This document shows, piece after piece, positions 8,225-42,082 of a stretch of DNA of 64,000 bases. The stretch's first letter is position 1. Each line of letters starts with the position of its first letter. Both the position numbers and the translations under genes were made by a program. The notes beneath the pieces were generated by a model. It searched no databases, was not told where the DNA came from, and saw only the letters and a list, made by a program, of their open reading frames with translations. Source of the DNA: Saururus chinensis (lineage: Eukaryota; Streptophyta; Magnoliopsida; Piperales; Saururaceae); contig CP141140.1 of assembly GCA_035235625.1 (NCBI GenBank), positions 43,705,351 through 43,769,350 of the forward strand, in the 5' to 3' direction.

Positions 8225-10690
8225 AAGTTACTCGATGTGGGTATTATTTACCCACTTTTAGATAGCTTTTAGCCATGTTCAAGTTGTTCCCAAGAAATCC
8301 GGAATCAATGTAGTCAAGAATGATAATAATGAATTAGTCCCAACTAGAATGACTACTAGTTGGCGAGTTTGTATTGACTACAGAAAATTAAACTCAGCAC
8401 AAGGAAGGATTACTTTCCCTTTCCATTCACTAACTAGATGCTTGAGAGGTTAGCTAGACATGGTATTTATTGCTTTTTAGATGGTTACTATGGTTATAAC
8501 CAAATTCCTATTGCACCTAAAGATCAAGAAAATACCACATTTACTTGTCCTTTTGGGACATTTACCTATAGGAGAATGCCTTTTAGACTCCACAATGCAC
8601 TCGCCACTTTTCAGCTATGCATGATGGGCATCTTCTCTAATATGGTAGAATGTTTTATTGAGGTGTTTATAGATGATTTATCTATATTTGGAAACTCTTT
8701 TGAGGAATGATTACAACATCTGACATTAGTGTTAATTAGATGCAGAGAAAATAATCTTGTCTTCAATTGGGAATATTGTCATTTCATGGTTTATAAAGGA
8801 ATTGTTCTTGGGCATGTAGTTTCTAAGGATGGCATTGAGGTTGACAAGGCTAAGATTAATTTGATTTCTAGCCTTCCACTGCCATATACAGTGAAAGAAG
8901 TCAGGTCTTTCTTAGGACATGCAGAGTTTTATCGTAGGTTCATTAAAGACTTTAGCAAGATTACCCAATCATTGTGCAATTTACTTGCAAAAGATTCCTC
9001 TTTTGTCTTTAATGATGACTATTTACAAGCTTTTGAGAAGCTTAAGAAATTATTGACTTCCGCACTATCATTCAACCACCTAATTAGAAGGTTCCATTTG
9101 AGATTATGTGTTATGCTTCTGATTGTGCAGTCGGAGCTAATTTGGGGCAAAGAGTACACAAATTACCCCATGTCATTTACTATGCCAATGGGACCCTAAA
9201 TGATTCCCAACTCAATTATTCAACAACTAAGAAAGAACTATTAGTTGTTGTCTTTGATTTAGAGAAATTTAGGTCTCACCTTATAGGATCCAAGGTGATC
9301 TTTTTGGATCATGCAACATTGAGATATCTTCTTTCCAAGAAAGATGCTAAACCTCATTTGATTAGATGAATCCTTCTGGTACAAGACTTTGAAATTAGAG
9401 ATAAGAAAGGTTCTAAGAATGTGCTAGAAGATCACTTGTCTAAGCTAGTTTCTGAGTCTATTGAGGAGTCTTCACCCTTTAATGAGTCATTCCTTGATGA
9501 GTAGTTATTGTTAGTATCTCAGTACCCTTGGTATGCAGGTATTGCCAACTATCTTGTCATAGGTCAAATTCCTAGTGAGTGGACAAAGCAAGATAGAACA
9601 AAATTTTTAGCTAAGGTTAGACAATTCTTTTGGGATGTTCCATATTTATTCAAGTATTGTCCTGATCAAATCACTAGGAGATATGTTCCTGATAATGAGC
9701 AACATAGTGTCCTCTCCTTTTGTCCTTTTCAAGTGTGTGGTGGATATTTTAGCGCTAAGAAGATCACTGCAATGTGCTTTCTATTGGCCCACACTTTTTT
9801 ATGATACCCACCAATTCTGTAAAGCTTGTGAGCGTTGTCAAAAGTTAGGTGGAATCTCTTGTCAAAAAATGATGCCCCTTAACCCCATTTTGATTGTTGA
9901 ACTTTTTTATGTGTGGAGAATTTATTTCATGGACCCATTTCCCCCATATTTTGGTAACTTGTTTATCCTTGTCGTTGTAGACTATGTTATCAAATGGGTT
10001 GAAGTTGTACCATGCAAGACAAATGACCATAAAGTTGTGGTCAAGTTATTGAAAGAAAACATTTTTTCTCGCTTTGGTACACCTCGAGCATCCTTAGTGA
10101 TGGAGGTAGTCATTTTTGTAATAAGGCATTTGAGTCTTTGCTAAAGAAAACTCATAAAGTGGCTACACCCTATCATCCCAAGACTAGTGGACAAGTTGAG
10201 GTCTTTAATAGAAAAATTAAACACACATTAGAGAAAATGGTAAAGCCAGATTGCAAAGATTGGTCTCTAAGATTGATAGATGTTCTTTGGGCTTATCATA
10301 CTACTTTTAGAACTCCCATTGAGATGTCACCATATAGGCTTGTCTATGGCAAAGCCAGTCACTTGTTTGTAGAATTGAAAAATTAAATCTTTTAATTTTT
10401 CTTTCGATGAGACTATCTCACATAGAAAGCTTCAATTTAATGAGTTAGAAGAGATCCAGAATGATGCTTATGAAAGTGATAAATTTTATAAGGATTGAAT
10501 GAAGGTGTTCCATGATAAAATGATTCTTAGAAAATATTTAGAACCCTCTCAAAAGGTTGTTGGACTAGTCCCTTCATTGAGAAGACAGTCTGTCCTTATG
10601 GGACGGTTGAAATTGAGGACCCAAGTAATGGTAATATTTTTAAAGTTAATGGTCAAAGATTAAAGTCATACTTCGAATTTGTTCCAATAA
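8225..10690 (+). pseudogene. Athila-like Ty3/gypsy pol: RT, RNase H, integrase (broken)
   Basis: Domains follow the Ty3/gypsy order. A pre-RT segment (DVGIIYP, VVPKKSGI, WRVCIDYRKLN) lies at about 8225-8420. The RT core has FCLDGYYGYNQIPIAP-like text, TCPFGTFTYRRMPF and the active-site box VFIDDLSIFG near 8665. RNase H with the [10 protein letters not shown] and [11 protein letters not shown] motifs runs to about 9480. The integrase has a zinc-finger CKACERCQK near 9830, core Asp in YFMDPFPP, and GQVEVFNRK near 10195. The integrase C-terminus, with KVNGQRLK-like text, reaches about 10690. Frameshifts near 8425 and 9190 and stops (8708, 9367, 9502, 10142, 10384) break it. The second core Asp motif (SDGG in relatives) is degraded. 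The wording matches the Athila/Tat branch. gag and protease are absent. Confidence 0.85.
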
Positions 10691-16811: not shown

Positions 16812-17076
16812 GGAAGCGTTTTTTATGCTCCACTCGGAGCATAAGCCGAGCGTAAGGAACGCCTGGGAACCGTCTGATCTCAAGATCGGTGGCGCACACG
16901 CTAGTGCACGTTAGCGTAACCGTCTGATCTCAAGATCGGTGGCGCACACGCTAGCGCACGTTAGCGTAATACGCTAACGTGCACTAGCGTGTGCACCACC
17001 GATCTTGAGATCAGACGGTTCCCAGGCGTTCTTTACGCTTGGCTCATACTAAAAAGGGAGCATGAAAAATGCTTCC
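16812..17076. mobile_element. Mutator-type MITE, 265 bp, 9-bp TSD
   Basis: The two ends are inverted copies: GGAAGCGTTTTTTATGCTCC at the left and, read on the other strand, GGAAGCATTTTTCATGCTCC at the right. Near-perfect inverted arms extend about 100 bp inward and share the CCGTCTGATCTCAAGATCGG block. It is flanked by an identical 9-bp duplication GTGGGAATG at 16803-16811 and 17077-17085, the size made by Mutator-superfamily transposases. The left arm contains a 50-bp tandem duplication (units at about 16868 and 16918), so the element is close to one long hairpin. It has no coding capacity. Its ends differ from those of the large MULE 180 bp downstream, so another transposase moved it. Confidence 0.9.
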
Positions 17077-17258
17077 GTGGGAATGTCCCTGAAGAGTGCA
17101 GTTTGTCACATTTATTAAGAATAAATTGTTCAGTATGTGAAGAAGTGACAATTTTCAGGACTAACAGCAATCGATTTGGACATTTCTGGTCTCTCTCCAA
17201 TCCGTAGATATTTTCTATCATTATAAATTTCATAATTGTAACAAAAATATTTTTTTTA

Positions 17259-17382
17259 GAGTTTTTTTCATATTACTTTGCCAAAGAATAAAATATTCTA
17301 TATTTTTTAAATTTTAAATGAAAATGTCATAGAGTTTGGAATAATACGATATAAGATAAATTGGGACTAAAATACCCCTGAC
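17259..17382. repeat. left terminal inverted repeat of the MULE
   Basis: Pairs with 27883-27989. The best conserved blocks are the first 20 bp, the AAATGAAAATGTCATA region near 17316-17331, and GGGACTAAAATACCCC near 17363-17378. Confidence 0.85.
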
Positions 17383-18111
17383 CGGAGGTAGGGTTTTATA
17401 TCGTGTAAAACCCTCACGAAGTCGCATTCATTAGCATACAATTTTAGACACCGGCGATTCCTCCGATTGAAAACCCTGTTCCGATTCAAAACTCCATTCC
17501 GATTGCAAAGTTGTCTGGTTCAGCACCGTTCACGCGGCGTGGGAGAAGATTTTGCGACCTATCTAACCAGACATGGAAGATTAGATTTTTTTTTGTTCTG
17601 GAACGAGTTTGCAAAGTTGAGCTTTGAAACTATACGCCCAAAAGGTGGTTCTTCTTTGTAGAGGTGATTCAGGGTTTGCAGCGATCCGGGTAAAGGAATA
17701 AACTTTGTAGAAAAGCAGCGGCCGAATGAGTGGTTACTCTAGCTTGGAGAACAACAGCAGCGGTTTCATGGTAAGGCATTTCATATATTTGTATGCTCGA
17801 TTTTTAATTTAGCGTGTATTAGAGCACACGACATAGGCAGTCAAAGCAAACTATAGTTGGGTCAGAAAAATGATGAGTCATATATTGTGTGTTCAATAAG
17901 ATGCTTGAAACACGATGTTCAACCATTATGATATCATGTATGTGACTTCCTCATAGCGTATGTTCGAGCACACGATAAATATACTTATTGTATAAATACA
18001 AGTTAGCTATATAATGTGAATCGTCGCGGCTATTGATTATGGTCACGACCTATTGTTGATTGACATATATTTATCCAATTTTATAGATGTAAAGTTAGAG
18101 TATTACATCAA

Positions 18112-21100
18112 ATGGCGGAGTCAGTGAAGGTTGCAGAAGAGAAGAAGAAGAGAATCAATAGGAGAAGACTGGGTCTGGGAACAAATAATTTCCCCGCTAG
18201 ACTGCGTCTATCAAAAGACCTTATAGATTCACGTTCGGGATATAAGGCCATATTGTTGGAGACTGGGTTTTACCAAATATATAATTACGAGCCCATCATC
18301 ATCTCTAGGCCGCTATTGGATGTACTCATTGGTGATTGTTGGGATGACTCACTAGAGGTCTTCAACATAAGGGGCAAAGGACTACCCCTTACTATGGCTG
18401 AAGTGGCTATGATCACGGGTTTGAGTGGAAAAGGGAACCCGTGTAAATTGGAAAGTAGCAAGGGGAAGGCTGCCCAAGGCAATGGGTAATTCTACAAGAA
18501 GTTCTTCCAAGGGAAGAAGGCAGAACTTGAAGAAATGTTGAAAGAAGTGGCTAACGAAACAAGGACTGTTTCAGATGAGGACTTAGCACGGTTGGCAATC
18601 ATGCACATGGGTGTCCTCGTGTTGTTCACACATAGCAACAGAGCCGTATCCCCAGCTTTGTGTGATTACTTAGATGACATATCCATCGTGGGGAGCTACA
18701 ATTGGGCAGGCATCGTACATGATATGCTGATGAGAGGCATATCGACAGCCCACCGGAACATCATGAACAGACAGGATGAGAGTTTCGCCATGGCTGGAAT
18801 TCTCGTTGGGGCTTCATTAGTGCTCCAGGTAAGGCTTGTATGTGTTATACCACGTGATTTCTAAGATCATATCGCTAATGACACGATACGTTTACAGGCA
18901 GATGAATATCGCCGTATTGGTCACACGATACAAACTAAATCATGTTATCGGGCATACAACATATAACATGCACATAGACATATCATGTTCCTAGTAACAC
19001 GACTAAGTATAATATTGTGGACATTAGACGATCGGAACATATCGTGTTACTGAAAACACAATGGGGCGTATTATAAGTAACACGACTAATTTGTTATAGT
19101 GAAGATACTGACCATTTGAACTAATGACTATATTCTTGTGTATTGTCCGCCAGGTATGGTTTTATGAGCATACGTCCATATGGGCTCCCAGTGGTCCCCC
19201 ATGCAGCCCGAGGTGCAAGAGATGGCCCGGATTTATGCAACTTTTGAGCGACATGGAAAAGACCAATAAACTTGACCAGGCCGACGAAAAGGGGAGGAAG
19301 AAGATTCTAGCTCATCAGCGGATGAGAAAGTGGTACGAGGATGTCTTCATGAGGTTGAAGCAAGACTCCCAAATTGTTATGCACATCACACCAATTCCCA
19401 AAGAGGCACACTTGATGGATGTCCAAAGGGCGACCCCGAAAGCTAAAAAGGCAGGTACTCAAACTTTCCAGTCAATGAGACCCGGCCATGCCCTCCACAG
19501 AGAGAAGTCGGGGCATGTACATTTCAGCCATGACATCATTGAATCATTCGGCATGCCAGTTGATGTCATGACGAGAATATGTGAAGTTGTTTTAGAGAAG
19601 ACTGTGCTCTACGATGAGCAGGGATGGAACACGGAGCTAGTTGAAGCTGCACTCCAGCGTGTTAAGAACTGTCTCGAGGTGGCAACTAGCCTCATAGAAC
19701 AGATGCATCCCCTGAGGAACCGGAGACAGCTGCTTGATCCCACTCAGCCGGAGGTCGCCCAAGCATCAACCCCTCTGCCAAGAAAAGGATCATCGTCGGT
19801 TCGTTTAAAGACAAGAGCTTCAAAATTCAGAGAAGATCGCCAACCATCTGCCCCCGAAGATTAACCAGTACATGTCCCTCAGCCGGTGGAACAGGGATTC
19901 ATTTTGAGTAAGTTCAGCATTTTAATGTATCGTGTTTCGTTAAGAGATCTTTGTGTAGTCAAGTACACGATAGGGGATCATGTCATTTATTAAGAAAGAC
20001 GATTTTGGTATTGTCGTATCATCAATCACACGATCATTGAAGCAACAATTACTTCTGAAAACAATATTTGTGTGGTCGTGTGATCGTGAGCACAATTAGT
20101 CCTCTTTTCATATTTCCAACAATATGATATGCAATTTCATCGTGTTTGGCAAAAGACAACTAGCATGCATATCGTGTGTTTACTAACACAATGGCTTACT
20201 TCTTAAATACAAAGAAATGGCAACCGCAAGCTGCCACCAAACCGAAGAAGAAGATTGGTCCGAAATTGCAAAGGACCGTAATAACTAGATTTTTGACAAA
20301 AATAAATGCAAAATTCATAGAACAACCACGGGAGGTCGTGGAACAACCACGGGATGTCGTGGAACCACCCCAGGAGGTCAAAGAACAACCCCGGAAGGTA
20401 GAGGAACCAGACCTTCCCCGGGAGGTCATGGCTCAAGTCCGTGATGGGCCGGAACAACCCCATGAGGGACCAGCAGAACAACTAGAGGTTCCAAAACAAC
20501 CTTTGGAGGGTCCGAAAGCACCCCAAGAAGCAAATAAATGAGCAGTCCCGAAACAAGCAATAAAACTCAGATTGAAGTGGAAAGCTACTCTTGGTGCTCC
20601 TTTCTTACCTCCTATGCCATAGAAGTCGAGGTACACCGCAGTTGAATAACTTGCTTAAGGTGAGGAGCCTCTGAAGAAAGTCTCATCTCAGGGCTCAAAG
20701 AAGCCAAAGCATTTTAGCAACTACATTGATGAGAAGTTAGCAAAGTTTGGACACATTGCCCAGCCTGGAAAGCCTAGTGACGAAGTACCTCTGGCATCGG
20801 TCACTGGCCCAAGCATTATCTGTCCAGCACATCCAAAGTATTCCACCCCGGGACTAGCAGCCTCAATCACAATTTCCAATGAAGGCACTTTATCAGATAC
20901 TCCTCCAGTAGATGCGGAAGTAATGAAGAATATCCACAATGTTGTAGATGTCGAAGATGATACTGCGACTAAGACGATTAAGGAGGAGCGCACTCTGTGG
21001 CCAAATGACTATCTTGACACAGAGTTGGTGTTCCACATGGAGGTTCAGGAGGCAGATAAGGAAATTATCACCGAATTTCTGTCAAATCCATACAAGTCAT

Positions 21101-22059
21101 GGCCCATAGAGACACTCCTCTACACCGACTACCTATCTCTGTTAAAGTAGGAGTGCATAATGAATGAGGTAATATCATTTCATTTCTCATATGTTTGAAC
21201 ATCTATCATGTTATTAATCAAACGATTGAATAACTGACGCATATTACAATTAATTATCGTTTTATCGATTACATGACCTAGGATCATATCGTTGTTTTCC
21301 TTATACACTAAGTTTTGACTATCATTGCTAAAGTAAAACTAGCGTGTTAATTCATACACAACTTGTAAATGTGTCATGTTATCATTAATTTGATATAATC
21401 ACTTATCGTGTAAACGATGTCACGATCGGTCAACTACTGTGTCATTACTAACATGTATGGTTTTGTGTAGGTCATCGACGTCTTCTTCCAACTTCTTAAT
21501 GAACAAAATTTGAGAAATTCAGGCAGGTACCCTAACTATTTTTTTGGCAAGTTCGCTATTCAGCACTACTTTAACATTGGCACTACAGAAGGGTCAGCGG
21601 AGAAGGAGAGAAAACTCTCTGGCATATTGTTGACCGGCCTAAATGTTAACACGGAGAGCGGTTTCATTCCTATCTATGCCAAGGGCCACTTTCTCTTGCA
21701 TATCGTCCACTGCAGGGAGAAGCGATTTAGGTTGTACAATCCTCTAAAGGGTGAACACAGTCACCACTTCGTCAAGGTAGACAGTGTCAAGAAACATTTT
21801 GCCAATGGAATGGAGAAGGCACTTAAGATAAAGGGCGCTTGGCTATGGCCAATGACTAAGATCAACAAATGCCAATACCAGGAAACAAACAAAGATTGTG
21901 GTTTGTTCAACATGTACTACGTAGCAAAACTGGCAGGGGGTGTCATTCAGCCAGATTTTAGACAACTCGAGATAATAAGCTTGGTCAGGCCAAAGATCTA
22001 CGCTGCTATACTTCGGGCCTGAATCAAAGAGGAATTTGATCTGTATATAGATGAATTGT
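18112..22059 (+). pseudogene. MULE gene: DUF1985/PMD-like domain + Ulp1-type protease, decayed
   Basis: Exon 1 is 18112-18828, with an N-terminal basic patch (EEKKKRINRRR), then a domain ending FNIRGKGLPLTMAEVAMITGL, which resembles the DUF1985/plant-mobile-domain fold found beside Ulp1 domains. Intron 18829-19153 is GT-AG. Exon 2 starts at 19154 and has a probable donor at 19908. A third coding stretch of about 20.2-21168 encodes a proline/glutamate repeat region (EQPREVVEQPRDVVEPP). The last exon, 21471 to about 22059, carries the Ulp1 peptidase (C48) region: His in KGHFLLHIV, FRLYNPLKGE, Gln in INKCQYQ and Cys in DCGLF. The usual Asp after FRLY is Asn. In-frame stops lie at 18487, 19862, 20539, 20620, 20647, 20656, 21148 and 22020. 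Frame and splice phase are otherwise kept, including phase 0 across 21168/21471. Ulp1 enzymes cleave SUMO-type conjugates; the role of these transposon versions is unknown. Confidence 0.85.
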
Positions 22060-24215
22060 AAAAGAAAATAGACTTCTTTCATGCTTTGATTAACTGACAA
22101 ATTCAATGTTTGACCAATTATTTTGTAATAACTACTAGAATAGAAATACATGTACCAATGTCAGATGGCATATAATCAATCAAACAATTTGTACCAATAT
22201 CGAGTATTCGATAGCGCGAAACGGAAGTACACATATATCTAATTGTATTATAGTTCTCATGATCACTTATTAGGTCGTGTTATCGCATACACGCCACCTC
22301 GTATTAGGTCATGTTATCATTTACAAGACATCTCGTATTAGGATGTCTTTGATGTCGTGTAATCAAACAAACGAAAAAGATTCATGTCGTTGATCATAAC
22401 TGACGACTGAACGTTCTAGAACGAGGATGGTCATAGGAAAGTTTCAAACATTAACCGAAATCAAATATGTTTCTAGATGGCCACTTCAAAGGATGTTGAT
22501 GACCAATATGTCGTGAAAGCGACGGATCATAATAGTGTAGGTCGTGTTATCCGATTGATCTACATAATAACATTTCATCGTGTGTCTACATAAGTGTTAT
22601 TAATATTTTCCTTTAATTTTATTAATTCTACATCCAACAAACTAATAGTTACAAAACTTTATAAATACAAATAAAGTTCAATTGTGACGGAACATTCGTG
22701 ACATTGAAATAACACCGGGTAGTAAATCGGCCCCCTTCATAGGCTAGTTAGGACCGCGCCACTAAAGGGGACAAATTACCATTTGGCACTATATCAATGT
22801 CCCAAAGGCTTCATCTCGTGCTCTTCGCGAATTGGGTTAGCCCAGAGGTAACTTCGATATATATAGGCAGGATGCGAGGGATACAAACCGTTAAATATAT
22901 ATGGAAATTATTCCATATATAGTGTAATTGGAAATTGGAAATGATTCCTCGCGAATTAATGATTCTAATTTAGTTGAAATCTTGGAAATTGTTGTGACGC
23001 TTCGGGAATTGGGTGTTTAAATTTATGTAGTTGTCGTGTGTTCGATCGCACGACATGACCAATATCGTGTAATTGATTACACGTCTAGCATAAATATTCA
23101 TTATTGTAGTCGTGAGATCGTAAAATGGACTGATAACTCATCATGTTCATGTGAACACGATATTTACGAAAGTCGTGTGAAAACAAAATGCGAGTGTATT
23201 ATTGTCATGTGGTCGGTAACACGATATATGAACATATCGTGTTAAGGAATACACGCTTCAACAAGTATCATTACATCCAATATACGGGAAAGACAACTTT
23301 CAATGGGAAGAAAGATATAACTGTTATTAATTCATTACATCCAAAAAACTAATCTTTACATAACTTTAAAAATACTAAGAAAATAACAATCCTTCTTGTC
23401 GCTAGCGATCGGTTGGCGTGCGATCTCCTTATAGACTCACGTGCCCATCATTTCAAGAATAGGGCGTTGTCTAGCAAATAGGATGCAAATGTGACGGATC
23501 ATTGCAGATATTGATATATCGCTTTCTAGTGAAACATGCCCGCCATTGGATATAGGTGAGGACCATATCCGAAGGAGGGCCGATTCACCAGCCGCCGCTA
23601 CAACAATCTCTCGAATGATACGTCTCTGCGAAGAACATCACTGTGCGAGCGATCTCCCTATCAATCTTCCCAAATATATTGCAAAAATATTCACTATTGG
23701 AGTTGATTGAATAAGGCGCAAAGGCGACAGATCATTGGAGACATTGATATATCGTCGTCTAGTGAATCATGCCCACAATCGGATATAGGTGATGACCGTA
23801 TCCGATGGCAGGCCGATTCACCAACCGCCGCTTAAGCAATCTCCCGAATGACCCATCTCCGCGAAGAACCAATGAGTGAGCCTATAGGCAGGGTGAGACA
23901 GTTACAAACCGCCATGTTATTGAGCTATTGATGCATCGGGAATAACTCCTCGACAATTGGAACATTATGAACATGGAATTGTCATTCGAACACATGATAT
24001 GACCAATATTGTGTAAGCAAAGGACACTTTGACATAAGAATTAATAATTGATATATTGTATCATGTAATTAGTAACACGTAAACCCTTTTAGTTGTGTTG
24101 TCGCTTACACGATACACATATACAATATACCCTATGTACAACAAGTCATGTTTTTAGGAACACGTTAATTACATATTTCGTGTTGTTGATAACATGATGC
24201 ATATACAAAAAAATT
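22023..24215. other. MULE intergenic region between the convergent genes
   Basis: Non-coding, about 2.2 kb. It holds about 12 of the 20-bp palindromes in two clusters (22275-22375 and 23034-23256, then 24061-24197), separated by a duplicated sequence block. No third gene is visible, unlike VANDAL elements, which carry extra genes. Confidence 0.7.
22690..23960. repeat. three diverged copies of a ~240-bp block
   Basis: The clearest pair is about 23463-23660 and 23700-23905. Shared text includes GACGGATCATTGnAGA, ATTGATATATCG, GGATATAGGTGA, GGCCGATTCACCA and CTCTGCGAAGAAC. A more degenerate copy lies at about 22700-22990, part of it inverted (complement of GACATTGATATA and GGCCGATT) and part direct (TATAGGCAGGnTG...ACAAACCG). 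The blocks lie between clusters of the 20-bp palindromes. Confidence 0.65.
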
Positions 24216-27200
24216 TCAGCTAAAGAACGGGGGTGGAAAAGGTAAGCCTGATCGATGCTCCCCTTCCTTACGCCGTTTGTGTACGTTGTTATTCGACCTC
24301 CTTCAGCTTGTCAATGGGACATCTTCCACATTGGGGGGGCCCCCTTGTGCGCTGGTACATCGTTTACGGTTGTGACCCAACTAACTGCATGTTCCACATT
24401 TTTGTGGGGCTTTGAGAGGCAGTTGTGACTCTATCTAATTTTTCATACACACCCCTGCTGCTTTTGAGGGATAGTGGGCTGAATGTAGGCATAACTCCAG
24501 CCGGTGCCCACTCGTGCTGATCCTTCGTTGGGTGTAAGGGCTCTCGATAGGTCAGTTTATACATTTCAATAGAGTACCATCTTTCGTAGTACTCAAACAT
24601 GTAAAAGTATCTATTATCGATTGTTGCAATTGCATGCTTACATGGTAGACCCAGATGTTGAAACCTTCCACATGTGCAGGTATGATCAACCAAGTTAACC
24701 ACATCCTATGAAGAAAATATCGTGAGTATGAGTGCATGATAAATGACTTTCTCGTGTTCTCGATTACACGATGTGTCATACAATCGTTAAGTAAAATCAT
24801 ATCTACTTACACAATGAATGAAACTAACGTGTTTAAACTAACACGATATGAAGCCCTCACGCATAAATGAACACACGCTAGGTACATCGCCATATGAATG
24901 CAATGTACTTGGTGATATAGCGAGTTAACCTGGATTTCATACATTGGCACAAGCAATACAATTACATTCATGGCTTCTTCTTGCCTATTTTCAATGTGTT
25001 TTCGGGCAAATGGGTTAACTCTTCCATCATATTTTCACCGTCCATCCGACATTTTTCAAATAATGTCGTCGTGTGCTCAATTAAACGAGTTATAAGCATC
25101 GATCTAGTTTTTTTTAACATTGCATTTGCACTTTCAAACCTATTTTAAGCTTAGGGTCCCATATATTTTTTGAGAAATGATACATTCACCCAGTGCTCCG
25201 AACCTATCTAATTTAGCCAAGCATACGCTTCTGGATTATGTTTTTTAATGCAATTCATTGTTAATTCGTACACATTCTATCTGAATGTTTTAGCTGCAAC
25301 ATGGAGTTGATTCTTTAGGTAGTTGTCCTTGAATATGTCCAGCATATTTGCTGCCATGTGATGGGAAAAACTTCTTCACAGCATTTGCCAATCCCTTCTA
25401 TCTATTAGAAACGATTGTATCCAACTCGGCTGGAGGATCAGAGAATAGATGATTTCTAAGCAACTCAAGAAACCAGCACCAAGTTTTCTCACACTCATTC
25501 TTAACCACTACAAATGCAACACACAACGTATTATTGTTCCCGTCCAGTGCAGTTGCTATCAATAGCTGTCCATGATACTTTCCTTTCAAGAAAGTTGCAT
25601 CAACCGTTAGCAACGGCCTCAGAGTTGTTCTAAAAGCTCTCACAACAGGACCAAACATCCAGAATATTCTTTGCAAATCGTACCCACCCATAGGTCCGGG
25701 AATATCACTTGATCACACTAGCACAACTACACTTCCCAGATTTATATATTCTATCTGCCTCCCATAAGCAAGAAGTAAGCGGTAAGATTCGTTTGGGTAA
25801 CCATCTATTAAATCAGTCAGAGCTTTACCTGCACGACCAAATACAATTTAGTAAATATTATACGACACCAGCTTACAACATCTTCCCAATTGCATGACAT
25901 TTTATGTTTTTGTGTGATCGGAATCCATACACAATGACTGGTCATGTTTATTGTTACACGCTATTGACGTATGTCATGTGAGTACATATTCCGACCATAG
26001 TTTAAGTGTGTAAATGATAACATGCTAGACTAACATATCGTGACACTAAATTAACACTTCGATTCTTCTCATGCATTACCTGTGCACCAGCATTTCTTGT
26101 AGTTAGCAGTTATGCCCCAGTGCTTCGATATATTACTTGCTATGCTCTTAGGTGTAATGTCCACCGAGTCTTTAAAGATGTCATAACATTTTCTCGCTAT
26201 CCAAAGGTGTGATGCTAGGGGATGGTCAGTTGACTTCCTTTGGGTTCGACATGAATGAGTCAGCACTAACCTTGTGATAGTCACATGATCTCCTATATTT
26301 GAAGCCCTTATGTACCAGTTACAAGAATCATTGGAGCACTTTGCGATGTATGTATTCTGGTTTTCATCCACAACACGATATGTGAAATTTTCCTTTATTG
26401 CTAAGTCGATCAGGACCCTCTTGAAATGCAACAGACTTAGAAAATATGCACCCAATTCGAGGAGCTTTTGGTAATCCTTAGCTTGCAAACTGCCCATCAT
26501 CAGTTAGCCTTCACCAATATTCGGTTCCAACATATTTAAATCATCGACTATATCCCAATCTGCCTCCTCCTCAATGTTGACGTTATTGGGAACCTCTTTA
26601 TTTCCAAATTCTTCGTGGCCGGACATACTTTCCATGTCAACTATATCATTATCGTACCACAGATCCTCACCTCACATATTTTCAACTTCTTCGCCTTGTC
26701 CACCGTCATAATTCCAACAACTGTATGGAGGTTCGTATTTATCAAATAAAGTCCTTGTCCCATCCATCATTTGCGACCATTCCTCTGATCTATTTTGATT
26801 GACTTCTATTTTAGGTTTGTACTCGTTGGATTTGTGAAAGATGATTGACATGGATTTGTTGAGGGCAAGTTTCCCGGTTCTCCCAATCTGCATTGCACAT
26901 TATCATGTTAAAAAAATGCAACATTAGTCAACATCATGTATTCTGTTAACACGCTTACAATTCAAAACATGTTATCAAAACCACGACATGAATGCATGTC
27001 GTGTTATTATATCTACATTACAACTCATAATTGCTATATCGCATGTGTATATCATGTAATTACTAGTGCGATATATTATGCATCGTGTTTATTACTTCAC
27101 ACGATATGATTTACCCTTAACACGATATGTTCAATATCGTGGTCTCGAGTATACGAAATATTCCAATTGCATATAATCTAAAGATTCATTGTTACCTAAC

Positions 27201-27742
27201 AGTTTCAAAGGTGAACTAAGTTTCATTGAATCCGGAATGAAATCTAACATTAGAGCTGGGATGAGCCATTACGACAGGTGATTCAACTCTATTGACTATC
27301 TAAATCCTTTCTACGGAGGGTGATGGTGATTTATCACCGTTGTCAAGCTATTTCATCTCGGCATGCAATGATAACACCTCCTTATTTGCCTTCTTATGAA
27401 TGGAGAATACTGATTGGAGGTCCTCATCGTCTTGTAATTCATATATCATAGATAATTGGAAGGATGGAATTAAATACTTCAAACTGACATTACCATTGAC
27501 GGAAAGTCGTGCTTTGACTTGCCCCAGCAACTCACCAAAGCTCATTGGCGGATGAATGTTCATCAACCATGCCATTCCACTAATATACATGTCGTCATTG
27601 CTTACCTCTCCATTATAATAGATGTAAATACCGATCCTATCCATGATCAATGTAAAAGAAGGGTCGTTTCTACGAAATGTAACCTTTGGAGCACTCACGC
27701 AGCGTCTGCGGTGTCAAAAAATATTTTTTTCTTGTTCATCGA
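24216..27742 (-). pseudogene. mudrA-type MULE transposase, decayed
   Basis: On minus, the N-terminal exon (about 27742-27196) encodes a PB1-like region (IYIYYNGEVSNDD ... YELQDDEDLQSVFSIHKK). An acidic linker exon follows (26893-26080), then the conserved MuDR N-terminal domain with YIAKCSNDSCNWYIRAS and TPKSIASNI. The transposase exon starts at about 25869 and contains LTVDATFLKGKYHGQLL and a WCWFLELL helix. The last exon starts near 24707 with a SWIM zinc finger (CTCGRFQHLGLPCKHAI) and ends in a CCHC knuckle (CGTCS*LGHNRKRC) reached by a one-base frameshift near 24415. Clear GT-AG junctions include 27195, 26079 and the acceptors near 26894, 25870 and 24708. At least ten in-frame stops and a frameshift near 25370 disable it. 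The second catalytic Asp (VSDR in relatives) reads VSNR and is followed at once by a stop. Confidence 0.88.
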
Positions 27743-27882
27743 CTCTCACTGCTGAGTCACCACTGGTTAGCTCCCACCAGCGAGTTCCATTCGCTGCCGA
27801 TGACTACCAGCACACCAGAATGGTGCGGCACTGTTCCAGTGTTCATATATTACTCTCTACATCAAAACCTAATATATTAGAA

Positions 27883-27989
27883 ACGTAAGGGTATTTTGGT
27901 CCACAAACAAGTCATATGACATTTCCGTTTAAAATCTAGGAAATATGAAATTTTTCCTTCTTTGACCAGGCAATATGGAAAAAAAACTC
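27883..27989. repeat. right terminal inverted repeat of the MULE
   Basis: Complement of the left end at 17259-17382. The outermost bases read ...GGAAAAAAAACTC on plus. Confidence 0.85.
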
Positions 27990-27998
27990 TTTTTTTTA

Positions 27999-38000: not shown

Positions 38001-41000
38001 ACACAAGAACAACTATGGAGACGCTTCTTAACCCCCCCCTCCCCAATACCCCCCACGAAAAGAAAAAGAAAAACTGAGAATGGGTGAAGAAGACTACAAC
38101 TTCAGCCTTAAGCTCACTATCAACAAAAGAAAGAGGAGGTGTGGAGAAGGGAAGAGAAAAGCAAGAGGGCGGGCACGACGTGATGGTCTGGGCAGCGGCT
38201 GCTCCTATGCTGTCCAGCCTGCACACAAACCAGGAGAGGAGATGCTAGAGAGAGAGAGAGTATTCACGGAAAAACTCTGAGGGTTGGGGGTGGGTCTCCT
38301 CGACTAACCTAACATTTAGGACTTAGGCATTTCATTCTATAGTAACTAAAACTCTAGTGAGATAGACTTCTTAACTCAAGCACATAGTTTTGATAGGATT
38401 TACTTCAAACTCAAGCAATCAAAACTACTTAATTTCATATTTAACATCTAAGCCACATTTTTCGGCAAGTGGGTCCCACAAGTCAATTCCCCTCATTATA
38501 TTGAAATTCGTCATTAAATAAAACATAATATTCAAAAGTTCATATCTCCCTCTTTTGTTTGTTGGTTTTCACATTTTTGGTATTGTTACAATGAGGTCGA
38601 AATCTACTTTCTACTCATATAGGTTTCAAATTCTAACTCCCTGTGTGCTGGGAGGAATAAAATAAATAAGATACTAGGGTCAAATTTACAGGTCGGGCCC
38701 ACAGTCCCTCATTTAATTGCAAGGCAAATGAACCGTGTCCCACCATTGTGGTCCGTGTTCATATTAACACATCCCGCCTCTCTCTAGGGCTCACTAATTG
38801 CCTGCATTAGAAGAGCCAGACCTGCAAGTTCTAAAAAAGTTTGGCTCTAATTTTCATCAAACAACAATTGGATAGAGTGAATATTCTCTAAAAACCCTGG
38901 GTATTAAAGAAAAGATTCATGCCTTTCCATTCACCCCCTCCCTCCCTGGAGGCTGGAAGTAAAACCTTGCCCACTGCATCTTTTCCCAATATATGAAATT
39001 GGAATCAAACACACAGCCATCCTACCAATTTCAAAGATTTTTTATCAAGGTTCTGAATTTGTCCGTCATATATATTCATATATCTAGATATTAAGAATTC
39101 CAAAAAAAATGATGAGAATAAAAAAAAATTAAATTAATGAAGAAATCATATAATTGATCAAAATGCAAAAACATAAAATGAGGGCGTCCAGCACTAACGT
39201 GTCCTTTGTGTCATATATGAAAGTAGACTAATGTTCAAACTATTCATTATAACAACTCAACAATGATGGAAAAAGTTAGCCTTTACATATAGCAGGAGTA
39301 GCAAGATTGCTAGATTAATTGCTGCACATGTTGTTCAACAATGTTTAGAAAATGTGTCACAGTCAAGCAAGACACCAAAAACATAGCAAATTTCAACAAA
39401 CAACAAATTATTTAGAAAATGTCATACCTGTCTTGAAAGAAAAGATCGATGATATCCTTTCTCCCATTTTCATGGTTGAAAAATACAAAAAGGCTCCAAT
39501 GCATCAGCCATACTCTATTCTGTAACTGAGTCAGAGGGGATGCAAAATTCTGTATAGAATAAAAAATAAAACTGTGAAGGGACCGGAATAGACAGAACAT
39601 AAAAGTTTCTAAGCATATAACTGCAGCCAACATATATACCTTCATATCAATTATCTCCTTCAAATGATTGAGTTCCTCAAGGACAATATCCCAATTCAGA
39701 GTCAAAATTTCAGCAGCAAGCTTACCCCATGTTGCACTCAAGCCTCTGCCAGGATTAGTGCACAATGCACAATATAGATACAAAGCATCAGCAGCTTCAA
39801 AGTAGAACCCACATTCAAACTGAAGTTTCGCATACTGATACAAAGCCTCTATTTGCTCAGGAACAATCTGCATCAAGCAAGGTTTCGAAGTTAGGAATGC
39901 AAATGAACCCATGGTCGACCACAATGCACATTACTTTTCCAACCTCAACAGATAAGGTAAGTGTAAAGCTATAAAAGAGCTAACTGCCCCATGAGACCAG
40001 TACAAGATTTGCAATTGAATAGTTACAGGTCCTAGTTCCTAATTCTCCTTTCCTTCCTCGTCATTACTTCTCCCCTTTCTCTCTCAATCTGTTGCCTTTC
40101 ACCCTATTTCATTGTTGCCTACCTTGTGTGGCTCATTGGGCTGCACCAAAAAGTTATACAGTTGAAGAATTCCTTCCGCACCACATCTCAATATGTAACC
40201 TCATTCAAAACTTTAAATTCACCTGACACAATTTCTATGAATTGACAGTTACAACTTTCAGCACATCCGGATTTTTTTTAAAAAACCATAATCATAGTTG
40301 GTTCAGCAACAAGATACAAATTCTACTAAATATAACCAGAAAACGCAAGAAACCACCATGACTCCTGAAGGAACAAGCACATATAGGTATCTGATTCATT
40401 CTTTCCACTGTGTCCTAATGATAAATTGAATGCTCCTTACAAGGCAACGACAACTAATACATCTAAAAAATCTGATTGGTTCTTACCATTATATCACAAT
40501 GATAAAGTGAATGATCCTTAACCGGCAAAGACAATTAATACAGGATAAACAGATCACTCTATCAGGAGATATTTCTAAAAGTTACTACAGAAAAGATAAT
40601 ATATAATAATTCAACACCAAACCTGGAAGCGATCATTCAACATCTGAAAGTTGTACTCTTTGTCTGGCCTGAGCATCTGCACCGAACTGGAATTCAGAAA
40701 ACTTATCAATGGGGCTGCCAATTCCTTTGATGATTTAACTCTTGCCAACACTTCCAACTTCCTATCCACCATGGCTACCAAAAAAATAAAAACTCCAATT
40801 AAACTTAAATGTTCCAGAATCCAAACCGAAATATTCCAATTAAAATCACATTTTCCAGAATCCAAACAGAAATACTCAACGAAAACAGCAGGAAAAAAAT
40901 ACACCATTAACGCAAGCTGGGAACTCATCATTGTGTATACGAAACCATAAAACCTGCAATTTACATCCATAAACTAAACTTATTAATAACCATGGTCCCC

Positions 41001-41970
41001 GCAGAGAACAACAACCAACCACAAATCCACAATAAGGTTTTAAAACAAATGTACTAAAGAAAAACTAATTAACATCAATACCAGAAAGTAAATACTTCTA
41101 GCAGTTCAGCCCCAAATACCAAATTTCAAATTGTAATAATGTTATGCCCCGCCATAGGGGTCATGTCCACCTTCAGGGTTCACTAAAATATGAATTGTAA
41201 GTCAAGGGTAGATTAGTAATTCAATTATTATTAGAGTGTTATTTCTTCTTTAATCTTGTTGGCTTTAGGCTAATTGTTAGGGCCATTATCAGTTATGAGT
41301 TCAATACGGATTATGTTATGGAGTCTATATATAAGTAGGGGCTATGCCCTAATTCAAGAACCTTTGATCAATGGAATTTACTTACTGAGTAGTTTATTAA
41401 TGTTAATCTCTTATCCCTAATTCCTGTCTCTTTCCCCAACGATGTAAATCCCTAGTAGACAACAGGTCTACATCAAAAAATCATATAGAAGTCTGATTTA
41501 CCCAAAAAAAAAACATATAGAATCCTATAACAGACAACTGAAAAACACAGAGCCATAATCTCATTCAAAGGTCACCATACTCTGTTGAAGCGCTCAAAGT
41601 CCCCTTGAAAATACAACCACCAGGAGTTCAACTCCAAAATCCTAAATTTAAAATATAAAATTAAATGAAATAATATTTTTCTTACACAAACTAAATAATT
41701 GAAGTAGCCAAATCTCAACAACAACAAAAAATAAAGAAAAGAAAAAGGTATGAAAAAGGTACCTTGGGGAACAACTTGTGTGTGATATAGCTTCTGGTGT
41801 GTTTCCATCTCGTAATCAACCACATTCGTCTTGCAAACCAGCTCCATCTTTGCTTTGAGCATCTCGTCATCAGCATAGAGCTGACGCTCCTGGAGGAATT
41901 CTAGAAGTGGGAAAACTAGATGCCTATCCAGATATGGGGCAATCCGATTCGTCAAATCGTAGGTCGTCAT
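29028..41970 (-). CDS. EIF3E: eukaryotic translation initiation factor 3 subunit e (eIF3e/INT6)
   Basis: Eight exons (minus): 41763-41970, 40623-40774, 39640-39867, 39428-39549, 33193-33409, 32674-32792, 29226-29363 and 29028-29127. All introns are GT-AG, phases agree, and the joined frame is 1,284 nt, 427 residues plus stop, with no internal stop. Plant eIF3e is about 440 residues. The start is fixed by [19 protein letters not shown], the conserved N-terminus; [43 protein letters not shown] and [17 protein letters not shown] identify the body and C-terminal PCI domain. eIF3e is a subunit of the eIF3 complex that helps load mRNA on the 40S ribosome. Oddities: several substitutions at usually conserved sites ([18 protein letters not shown]), about 10 residues missing after DPFLGKCV (exon 6), and an altered C-terminus ([11 protein letters not shown]). 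Introns 4 and 6 are 6.0 and 3.3 kb because of transposons. Intact but divergent: working gene or a paralogue under relaxed selection. Confidence 0.93.
31252..31336. mobile_element. Stowaway-like MITE, 85 bp, TA target site
   Basis: Ends are inverted: CTCTTCCATCCCATATTAAG at left and, on the complement, CTCCCTCCATCCCATATTTA at right, the classic Stowaway CTCCCTCCgTCCCA end. It is flanked by TA on both sides (31250-31251 and 31337-31338). It lies within the LINE fragment. Confidence 0.85.
31480..31815. repeat. tandem duplication (~180 bp) within the LINE endonuclease region
   Basis: About 31480-31640 and 31660-31815 share CTATCAnTnATTCTTTTAAAAATC, ACCTACACCAT and TCAACCTGGCTTTCTCC in the same order. 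Confidence 0.7.
34371..38907. mobile_element. 4.5-kb element with ~210-bp inverted ends in eIF3e intron 4
   Basis: The left arm, 34371 to about 34579, is the inverted counterpart of 38692-38907. Shared blocks are TAATACC at the tip, CACTCTAT/TACTCTAT, ACTTGCAGGTC, AGCCCTAGAGAGA, CACAATGGTGG, CGGTTCATTTGCC and GGCCCAC. No transposase motif was recognised inside. The interior has low-complexity tracts: a C run and proline-rich frames at 35390-35640, and C-rich sequence near 38030. It is therefore a non-autonomous DNA transposon or two related copies in opposite orientation. No clear target duplication was found, so the superfamily is open. It accounts for three quarters of the 6-kb intron. Confidence 0.65.
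41140..41472 (+). mobile_element. possible small solo LTR in eIF3e intron 1
   Basis: Starts TGTTATGCCCC and ends GGTCTACA. It has a TATA-like GTCTATATATAAGTAGG near 41320 and ATCAATGGAATTTACTT before the end, as in short plant LTRs. No matching 5-bp flanks were seen (AATAA versus TCAAA), so this is tentative. Confidence 0.4.
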
Positions 41971-42071
41971 CTTTTCTAGGTTCTCTGTCCCGATGAAGCA
42001 GAAGCGAAAGACAAAGAAGAATGATTTTAACTGGTTTTTGCAATAATCATCAAAAACTTTATTTACATTGA

Positions 42072-42082
42072 CTTATATATAC
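42072..42082 (-). promoter_or_regulatory. TATA box of eIF3e
   Basis: Minus strand GGTATATATAAGT, about 105 bases upstream of the ATG. This implies a 5' leader of about 70-80 bases that includes TTCTTCTTTGTCTTTCGC-like pyrimidine-rich sequence. Spacing and sequence fit a core promoter. Confidence 0.55.

Follow-up and report, generated by a model that had tools for sequence, protein, structure and literature searches.

A 64,000-nucleotide stretch of contig CP141140.1 of Saururus chinensis, called the window here, contains a degenerate Mutator-like element (MULE; 17,259-27,989, 10,731 bp) in which a rigid 20-bp palindrome, TCGTGT-N8-ACACGA, forms an array in the introns and the intergenic gap. 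The dyad, its geometry, its non-coding location, its 32-bp spacing and the gene content of the element are observed directly. A gene with DUF1985 and Ulp1 domains lies opposite the MULE transposase gene, which is the anatomy of the VANC and KIU genes of other MULEs. The array is therefore read as the target of the element's own VANC/KIU-type anti-silencing protein, a reading to which a probability of about 0.7 is assigned. All array, gene and geometry results come from this single degenerate copy in the window.

Geometry and location of the palindrome

With up to 3 mismatches, the palindrome has 56 matches in the whole window, compared to 14.8 +/- 3.1 in 100 dinucleotide shuffles, the largest of which gave 23. 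Between 17,701 and 27,200, matches with a spacer of 8 number 19, 32 and 42 at up to 1, 2 and 3 mismatches, respectively, while the other 54.5 kb of the window hold 0, 0 and 14. The remaining 30 spacers (0-7 and 9-30) yield 0-7 matches each inside the element at up to 2 mismatches. A symmetric matrix, built iteratively from the sites of the element itself, identified 50 sites inside the element and 3 weak ones elsewhere in the window (scores 11.1, 10.5 and 10.1). It can be seen that the array of the original prediction is real, exceeds shuffled sequence and is absent from the rest of the window. The earlier count of 38 units among 39 read is about right in size, with the number depending on the cut-off (29-50 by matrix). 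The predicted limits of 17812..27156 agree with a first good unit at 17,812 and a last unit at 27,137-27,156.

The spacer was also checked in an unbiased way, with non-coding sequence aligned on a single arm, either the left (66 anchors) or the right (48 anchors). With either arm, the partner arm was the most conserved block beyond the anchor, at an offset of exactly 14 bp. A weaker preference for TYRA at the centre and for A/T at the flanks was displayed as well. Since the partner arm is recovered from one-arm anchors, the fixed N8 geometry is no product of searching for N8. The fuller consensus of the unit is approximately TATCGTGT-TATCGATA-ACACGATA.

The non-coding parts of the element, as scored, amount to 4,229 bp and include 48 of the 50 matrix sites. 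The leader intron has 3, the introns of the DUF1985/Ulp1 gene 6, 7 and 6, the intergenic gap 15, and the transposase introns 3, 3 and 5. Only two sites are exonic, at 25,069 (score 18.1) in a transposase exon and at 18,658 (score 13.0) in the DUF1985 exon. Thus, the motif is nearly absent from exons and sits in the 5' region, the introns and the intergenic gap, as had been claimed. Arms-only calls, which tolerate CpG decay, were made at three rising tolerances. Non-coding sites represented 29 of 31, 42 of 46 and 56 of 69 calls in the element, and 1, 23 and 102 further calls lay outside it. The 102 outside calls indicate that the loosest set is noisy and that only the stricter sets are clean. 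Between the two genes, no matrix site was found in 22,401-22,990 or in 23,301-23,960.

The two arms of the units are equally conserved, with mean mismatches of 1.08 (left) and 1.15 (right) over the 48 non-coding sites (P=0.75). They also change independently; Watson-Crick pairs number 205 of 300 across the 50 sites, compared to 208 +/- 4.5 when arms are re-dealt. With equal mismatches and independent change, the arms resemble a pair of half-sites that a symmetric protein would recognise, and not the two sides of a stem. An A for G at arm position 3 occurs in 17 of 48 left and 9 of 48 right arms, too small a bias to use.

Averaged across every pair among the 50 sites, identity is 0.715 and 0.673 for the arms, figures inflated by the choice of sites on their arms, 0.386 for the spacer, and 0.323 and 0.315 for the linkers. 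Neighbours (38 adjacent pairs) differ little from random pairs in the spacer (0.398 vs 0.386), the downstream linker (0.320 vs 0.323) and the upstream linker (0.355 vs 0.315), with the arms at 0.65-0.72. Neighbouring spacers and linkers thus show little or no extra likeness, a result that the choice of sites on their arms does not inflate, and this speaks against tandem growth in recent times, though the array may have an old origin in tandem duplication. Just one tandem array, a short one at 22268-22342 with 2.2 copies, overlaps with sites. The earlier preference for a dimeric DNA-binding protein over repeat expansion gains support from the balanced arms, the lack of arm covariation, the slight likeness of neighbours and the helical phasing.

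Helical spacing and CpG content

Neighbouring sites lie 31-33 bp apart more frequently than at any other spacing, and 32 bp, equal to 3 helical turns, is the commonest distance. In the loosest arms-only set, 22 of 44 adjacent gaps measure 31-33 bp, and within intron 2 of the DUF1985/Ulp1 gene 5 of 6 gaps are 31-32 bp. The arm match, averaged across 32 strong sites, lies 9.6 standard errors (z=9.6) over the element mean at a lag of +/-32 bp. Further lags above 2.5 standard errors occur at 24, 29, 34, 64, 85 and 96 bp.

When periods of 6-40 bp were searched with adjacent gaps of up to 120 bp, the best period was 10.4-10.6 bp at all four matrix cut-offs. Among 2000 draws of uniform gaps, none fitted as well at three cut-offs, while P was 0.02 at the strictest. 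For arms-only calls compared to random placement in the same segments, P was 0.002 (29 sites) and <0.001 (42 and 56 sites). After removal of the 32-bp class, the 19 other gaps favour helical steps at three cut-offs (P 0.009, 0.010 and 0.016). The three-turn phasing is firm, and phasing at other multiples of about 10.5 bp is likely but not firm. Helical phasing is geometry beyond what the original prediction had described.

Each consensus arm contains a CpG, a central CpG is present in 12 of 44 sites, and the mean is 1.46 CpG per site (48 sites). The products of methylated-CpG decay are CA and TG. When 22 element sites were selected by the core TGT-N8-ACA and nothing else, 24 of their 44 arms had CG as the arm dinucleotide, and 18 of the other 20 had CA or TG. 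The same core outside the element (19 matches) has CG in 1 of 38 arms and CA/TG in 10. Observed/expected (o/e) CpG is 1.05 in the non-coding DNA of the element outside the sites, 0.58 in its coding DNA and 0.54 in the rest of the window. High CpG in the non-coding DNA is the pattern expected from local freedom from CG methylation, and adds weakly to the other evidence. The two CpG signals conflict, with decay within the arms and little decay around them.

Structure and genes of the element

The imperfect terminal inverted repeats (TIRs) of the MULE begin GAGTTTTTTT, and their arms (17262-17331 and 27915-27984) are 70 nt long and 79% complementary. The same 9-bp target-site duplication (TSD), TTTTTTTTA, is found on both flanks, in low-complexity sequence. 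The exon and intron limits in Table 1 were deduced from open frames, domains and splice-like ends, with no transcripts used. As the frames are read here, neither gene of this copy is intact, both being interrupted by stops and by what look like frameshifts.

The minus-strand transposase gene is of the MURA type, with PB1-like, DBD_Tnp_Mut, MULE and SWIM domains. Its joined pieces matched 5 proteins, of which the top one (P0001, 378 aa, on contigs of up to 3510 bases) has 55% identity over 58% of the query; P0001 as a query against viral contigs gave no match. The plus-strand gene is convergent with the transposase gene and carries DUF1985, followed by Ulp1 in the last exon. DUF1985 (PF09331) was matched with E=4.4e-10 and 40.1 bits (Pfam cut-off 35.1) when one stop was read through. 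Without read-through it stays below the Pfam cut-off, the second half alone giving 2.3e-4 and the first half no match. The Ulp1 domain retains the His, Gln and Cys positions and has Asn at the catalytic Asp position, according to a weak alignment to human SENP5 (E=0.025). This Asn may be due to degeneration of the copy, or else the family may have ceased to need protease activity. Comparison of the DUF1985 part with solved structures found nothing usable (best E=0.54), and the predicted structure of its exon from a single sequence was unusable (pLDDT, a model confidence score, of 36). An NCBIfam scan of two proteins gave no match.

Two further observations concern the element. The 21-bp tandem repeat at 20320-20407 (4.2 copies) is coding, lies between DUF1985 and Ulp1, and resembles the tandem peptide motifs described for VANC variable regions (PMC5735166). 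By eye, the motif-free stretches 22401-22990 and 23301-23960 contain passages that seem duplicated and are perhaps captured host DNA.

Table 1. Features of the MULE, with positions in the window and starts of matrix sites
Feature	Position	Strand	Remarks
Left target-site duplication TTTTTTTTA	17250..17258	.	9 bp, low complexity, identical to 27990-27998
Left terminal inverted repeat, start GAGTTTTTTTC	17259..17331	+	without matrix site
5' leader intron	17772..18086	+	inferred, splice-like ends; 3 sites: 17812, 17885, 17956
Exon with DUF1985, VANC/KIU-like gene	18112..18828	+	interrupted by stop in this copy
Intron 1, DUF1985/Ulp1 gene	18829..19153	+	6 sites: 18867, 18909, 18940, 18983, 19042, 19066
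Exon 2, DUF1985/Ulp1 gene	19154..19905	+	without Pfam domain; apparent frameshifts
Intron 2, DUF1985/Ulp1 gene	19906..20204	+	7 sites: 19951, 19983, 20014, 20076, 20108, 20140, 20172
Exon 3, DUF1985/Ulp1 gene	20205..21168	+	proline/glutamate-rich; 21-bp tandem repeat 20320-20407
Intron 3, DUF1985/Ulp1 gene	21169..21469	+	6 sites: 21206, 21257, 21289, 21342, 21374, 21406
Exon 4, Ulp1/Peptidase_C48 domain	21470..22022	+	PF02902 E=2.4e-5, 24.7 bits (cut-off 20.7)
Gap between convergent genes	22023..24236	.	15 sites, clusters 22168-22374, 23034-23256, 24061-24197
Transposase exon, SWIM zinc finger	24237..24705	-	PF04434 E=1.4e-10
Transposase intron	24706..24870	-	3 sites: 24720, 24752, 24827; 24752 is the sole perfect unit
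Transposase exon(s), MULE domain	24871..25849	-	PF10551 E=2.3e-10; one exonic site 25069
Transposase intron	25850..26068	-	3 sites: 25878, 25942, 26006
Transposase exon, DBD_Tnp_Mut	26069..26899	-	PF03108 E=3.7e-11
Transposase intron	26900..27290	-	5 sites: 26967, 26999, 27052, 27085, 27137
First transposase exon, PB1-like domain	27348..27713	-	PF00564 E=2.3e-4, 21.5 bits (cut-off 23.6), below cut-off
Right terminal inverted repeat	27915..27989	-	without matrix site
Right target-site duplication TTTTTTTTA	27990..27998	.	identical to left copy

Elsewhere in the window, a long inverted repeat lies just left of the MULE at 16812-17076, with 107-nt arms that are 89% complementary, 51 nt between them and two 50-bp tandem units; it looks like a separate miniature inverted-repeat transposable element or foldback insertion. 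Degenerate pieces of a long terminal repeat retrotransposon occupy 8711-10144, reverse transcriptase-like by eye and with an integrase zinc-binding match just below the cut-off. The host gene for eIF3 subunit e (INT6) is present on the minus strand at 41572-42072 (eIF3_N domain, E=7.2e-23). By eye, the open reading frame (ORF) 39412-39930 resembles a further exon, and no Pfam family matched it.

Reading of the array and comparison with known systems

In Arabidopsis, the motif YAGTATTAY is bound by VANC21 in the non-coding DNA of VANDAL21 (introns, intergenic and terminal regions), where motif density matters, and the effect of VANC21 is a local loss of CG methylation and a wider loss of non-CG methylation (PMC5735166). 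VANC proteins carry DUF1985 (PMC5735166). Some VANC genes bear Ulp1 and are named KIU, and a review describes them as acting on specific motifs in KIU elements (PMC13317346). The analogy with VANC drawn in the original prediction holds. A short-motif array in the non-coding parts of a MULE is accompanied by a DUF1985 and Ulp1 gene opposed to the transposase. The array had also been called independent, and this part found no support, because the element gene has both DUF1985 (above the Pfam cut-off, stop read through), as in VANC proteins, and Ulp1, as in KIU. Most likely, the system is a relative of the VANC system and not a separate invention.

We infer the protein that reads the dyad, its dimerisation and an anti-silencing outcome. 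The DUF1985/Ulp1 protein would bind TCGTGT-N8-ACACGA as a two-fold symmetric complex with one subunit per arm, and the three-turn spacing would set adjacent dimers on one face of the DNA. In this way many weak, degenerate sites together could keep the introns and the intergenic gap densely and cooperatively occupied. Host RNA-directed DNA methylation (RdDM) acts in regions of this kind in Arabidopsis VANDALs, where it targets the same non-coding parts (PMC10398659). Bound protein may remove or block methylation there, and both genes would then be transcribed. Since the genes of this copy are broken, its array would now be readable only in trans.

More tentatively, and at a clearly lower probability, the array may be an anti-silencing target of new architecture, combining a rigid CpG palindrome, a protein dimer, three-turn phasing and one-face alignment. 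Because the recognition sequence itself holds CpGs, binding could depend on the methylation that binding removes. Such methylation-sensitive binding would give a self-sustaining on/off switch, unlike the CpG-free YAGTATTAY. The CA/TG in the non-CpG arms may be either a trace of past methylation after failure of the switch or tolerated variants of the site.

Several observations weigh against a VANC/KIU-type target. The conceptual DUF1985 and Ulp1 protein had no relative among the 8,000 best candidates scored, and the ORF pieces searched with Pfam showed no DUF287, a domain of VANCs. The VANC21 motif YAGTATTAY does not occur in the element, and the VANC6 motif AGTTGTMC occurs once. VANC21 motifs are described as having one orientation and often forming tandem repeats (PMC5735166), traits that are not presented as a definition of such systems, whereas here the units are dyads and tandem repeats are nearly absent. 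The main text of that paper never has 'palindrom' or 'inverted', and in it the Arabidopsis motifs are not described as palindromes. Concerning the phasing, the lags of 24, 29 and 34 bp exceed 2.5 standard errors yet are no helical steps, and phasing beyond the 32-bp mode is modest and gone at the strictest cut-off (12 gaps, P=0.85). The CpG signal is confounded as well. The motif-free stretches 22401-22990 and 23301-23960 are CpG-rich too (o/e 1.27 and 1.13), some intron linkers are CpG-poor (o/e 0.47 and 0.58), and a young insertion or captured DNA would give a similar excess.

Other explanations of the array are rated as much less probable. A dimeric host transcription factor could bind the dyad, with the element using the array as a dispersed enhancer. 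Palindrome, fixed spacing and 32-bp phasing would suit any cooperative dimer, and the arm holds CGTG/CACG, the core of several plant factors. However, no host factor is known to have exactly such spacing, and about 50 sites are dispersed over the intergenic gap and the introns of the two genes, whereas enhancers are usually compact. The remaining 54.5 kb of the window, the eIF3e gene included, have no match with up to 2 mismatches. A host factor is thus considered unlikely. Binding sites for the transposase, comparable to the subterminal repeats of CACTA and Ac/Ds, are rated as quite improbable. The encoded transposase has DBD_Tnp_Mut and SWIM domains, and near the left TIR there are a weak 3-mismatch match starting at 17,330 (the inner TIR edge) and a lone half-site at 17,401. 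Subterminal arrays, however, sit within the end few hundred bp, and here the outermost matrix sites lie 553 bp (left) and 833 bp (right) inside the MULE ends, with no rise in site counts per segment toward these ends. The transposase had been named as a possible reader, and with TIRs devoid of matrix sites an end-binding role for it is disfavoured.

The array could also be a relic without function, left by a 32-bp unit that duplicated in tandem. This would explain the commonest spacing and the slightly greater likeness of neighbours' upstream linkers, and VANC targets are known to expand through tandem repeats (PMC5735166). But neutral decay would hit arms, spacers and linkers equally, and the arms stand out, while neighbours' spacers and downstream linkers are no more alike than random pairs. 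Moreover, gaps of 43, 53 and 75 bp are no multiples of 32, and the sites cluster anew in each of seven introns and at three positions between the genes, which leaves a relic with very little probability. The least credible explanation is RNA or DNA hairpins, as intron structure or cruciforms. Six-base inverted arms could form them, and some units self-fold. RNA folding of 8 clusters gave z=-3.4 for one, -0.8 to -2.3 for six and -0.2 for one, a signal that short inverted arms would give by themselves. The lack of arm covariation and the intergenic position of 15 of the 50 sites argue against hairpins, as do predicted stems that mix pairing within and between units. An Rfam scan of the element found no family at the gathering score.

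A VANC/KIU-type target remains the favoured reading, and one of the closest comparisons is VANC21 with its element VANDAL21 (Hiun). Both systems have a many-copy short motif in the introns and intergenic DNA of a MULE that encodes a DUF1985 protein, and the VANC21 motif is described as rare in other transposable elements (PMC5735166). The VANC21 motif is a single oriented CpG-free 9-mer, whereas the unit here is a 20-bp CpG-containing dyad. VANC6 reads another motif, AGTTGTMC, in VANDAL6/8, which is 8 bp long and forms tandem repeats, unlike the 20-bp dyad (PMC5735166). It demonstrates that motifs differ between relatives, and the array here would be a further system of this kind that has a motif of its own.

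As in Kaonashi (KIU) elements, the Ulp1-domain gene is in reverse orientation to mudrA (PMC13317346, PMC2528002). KI-MULEs are called non-TIR (PMC2528002), and TIRs in the VANDAL group are reported as short and degenerate (46-174 bp) or lacking (PMC6446971); unlike KI-MULEs, the present element has recognisable TIRs. No account of a MULE with an array of palindromic motifs was noticed in the literature search, and absence from print is not claimed. The subterminal transposase arrays of CACTA (TNPA) and Ac are likewise repeated short protein-binding motifs in a transposon, with the sites here putative. They are confined to the ends, whereas the sites here are spread through introns. Sasaki et al. 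(2022, EMBO J) are said to describe VANC targeting by sequence, density and helical periodicity, and reportedly also how eudicots have gained and lost DUF1985, DUF287 and Ulp1. In that case, the phasing of the present array independently matches a property already known and is no novelty.

Systems of this type could be sought from sequence alone, by looking in MULEs with DUF1985 for phased motifs of fixed spacer that are restricted to introns, and such protein-site pairs are candidate tools for targeted demethylation. The recognition by one VANC protein of kilobases of its own transposon, and the evolutionary change of this choice, have been described as what is most enigmatic about VANC (PMC5735166). 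For one lineage, the dyad, its fixed spacing and its three-turn phasing would provide a concrete answer, namely a dimer that binds cooperatively on one face. The rigid palindrome, its CpGs and the near-absence of tandem repeats set the array apart from the motifs of VANC21 and VANC6.

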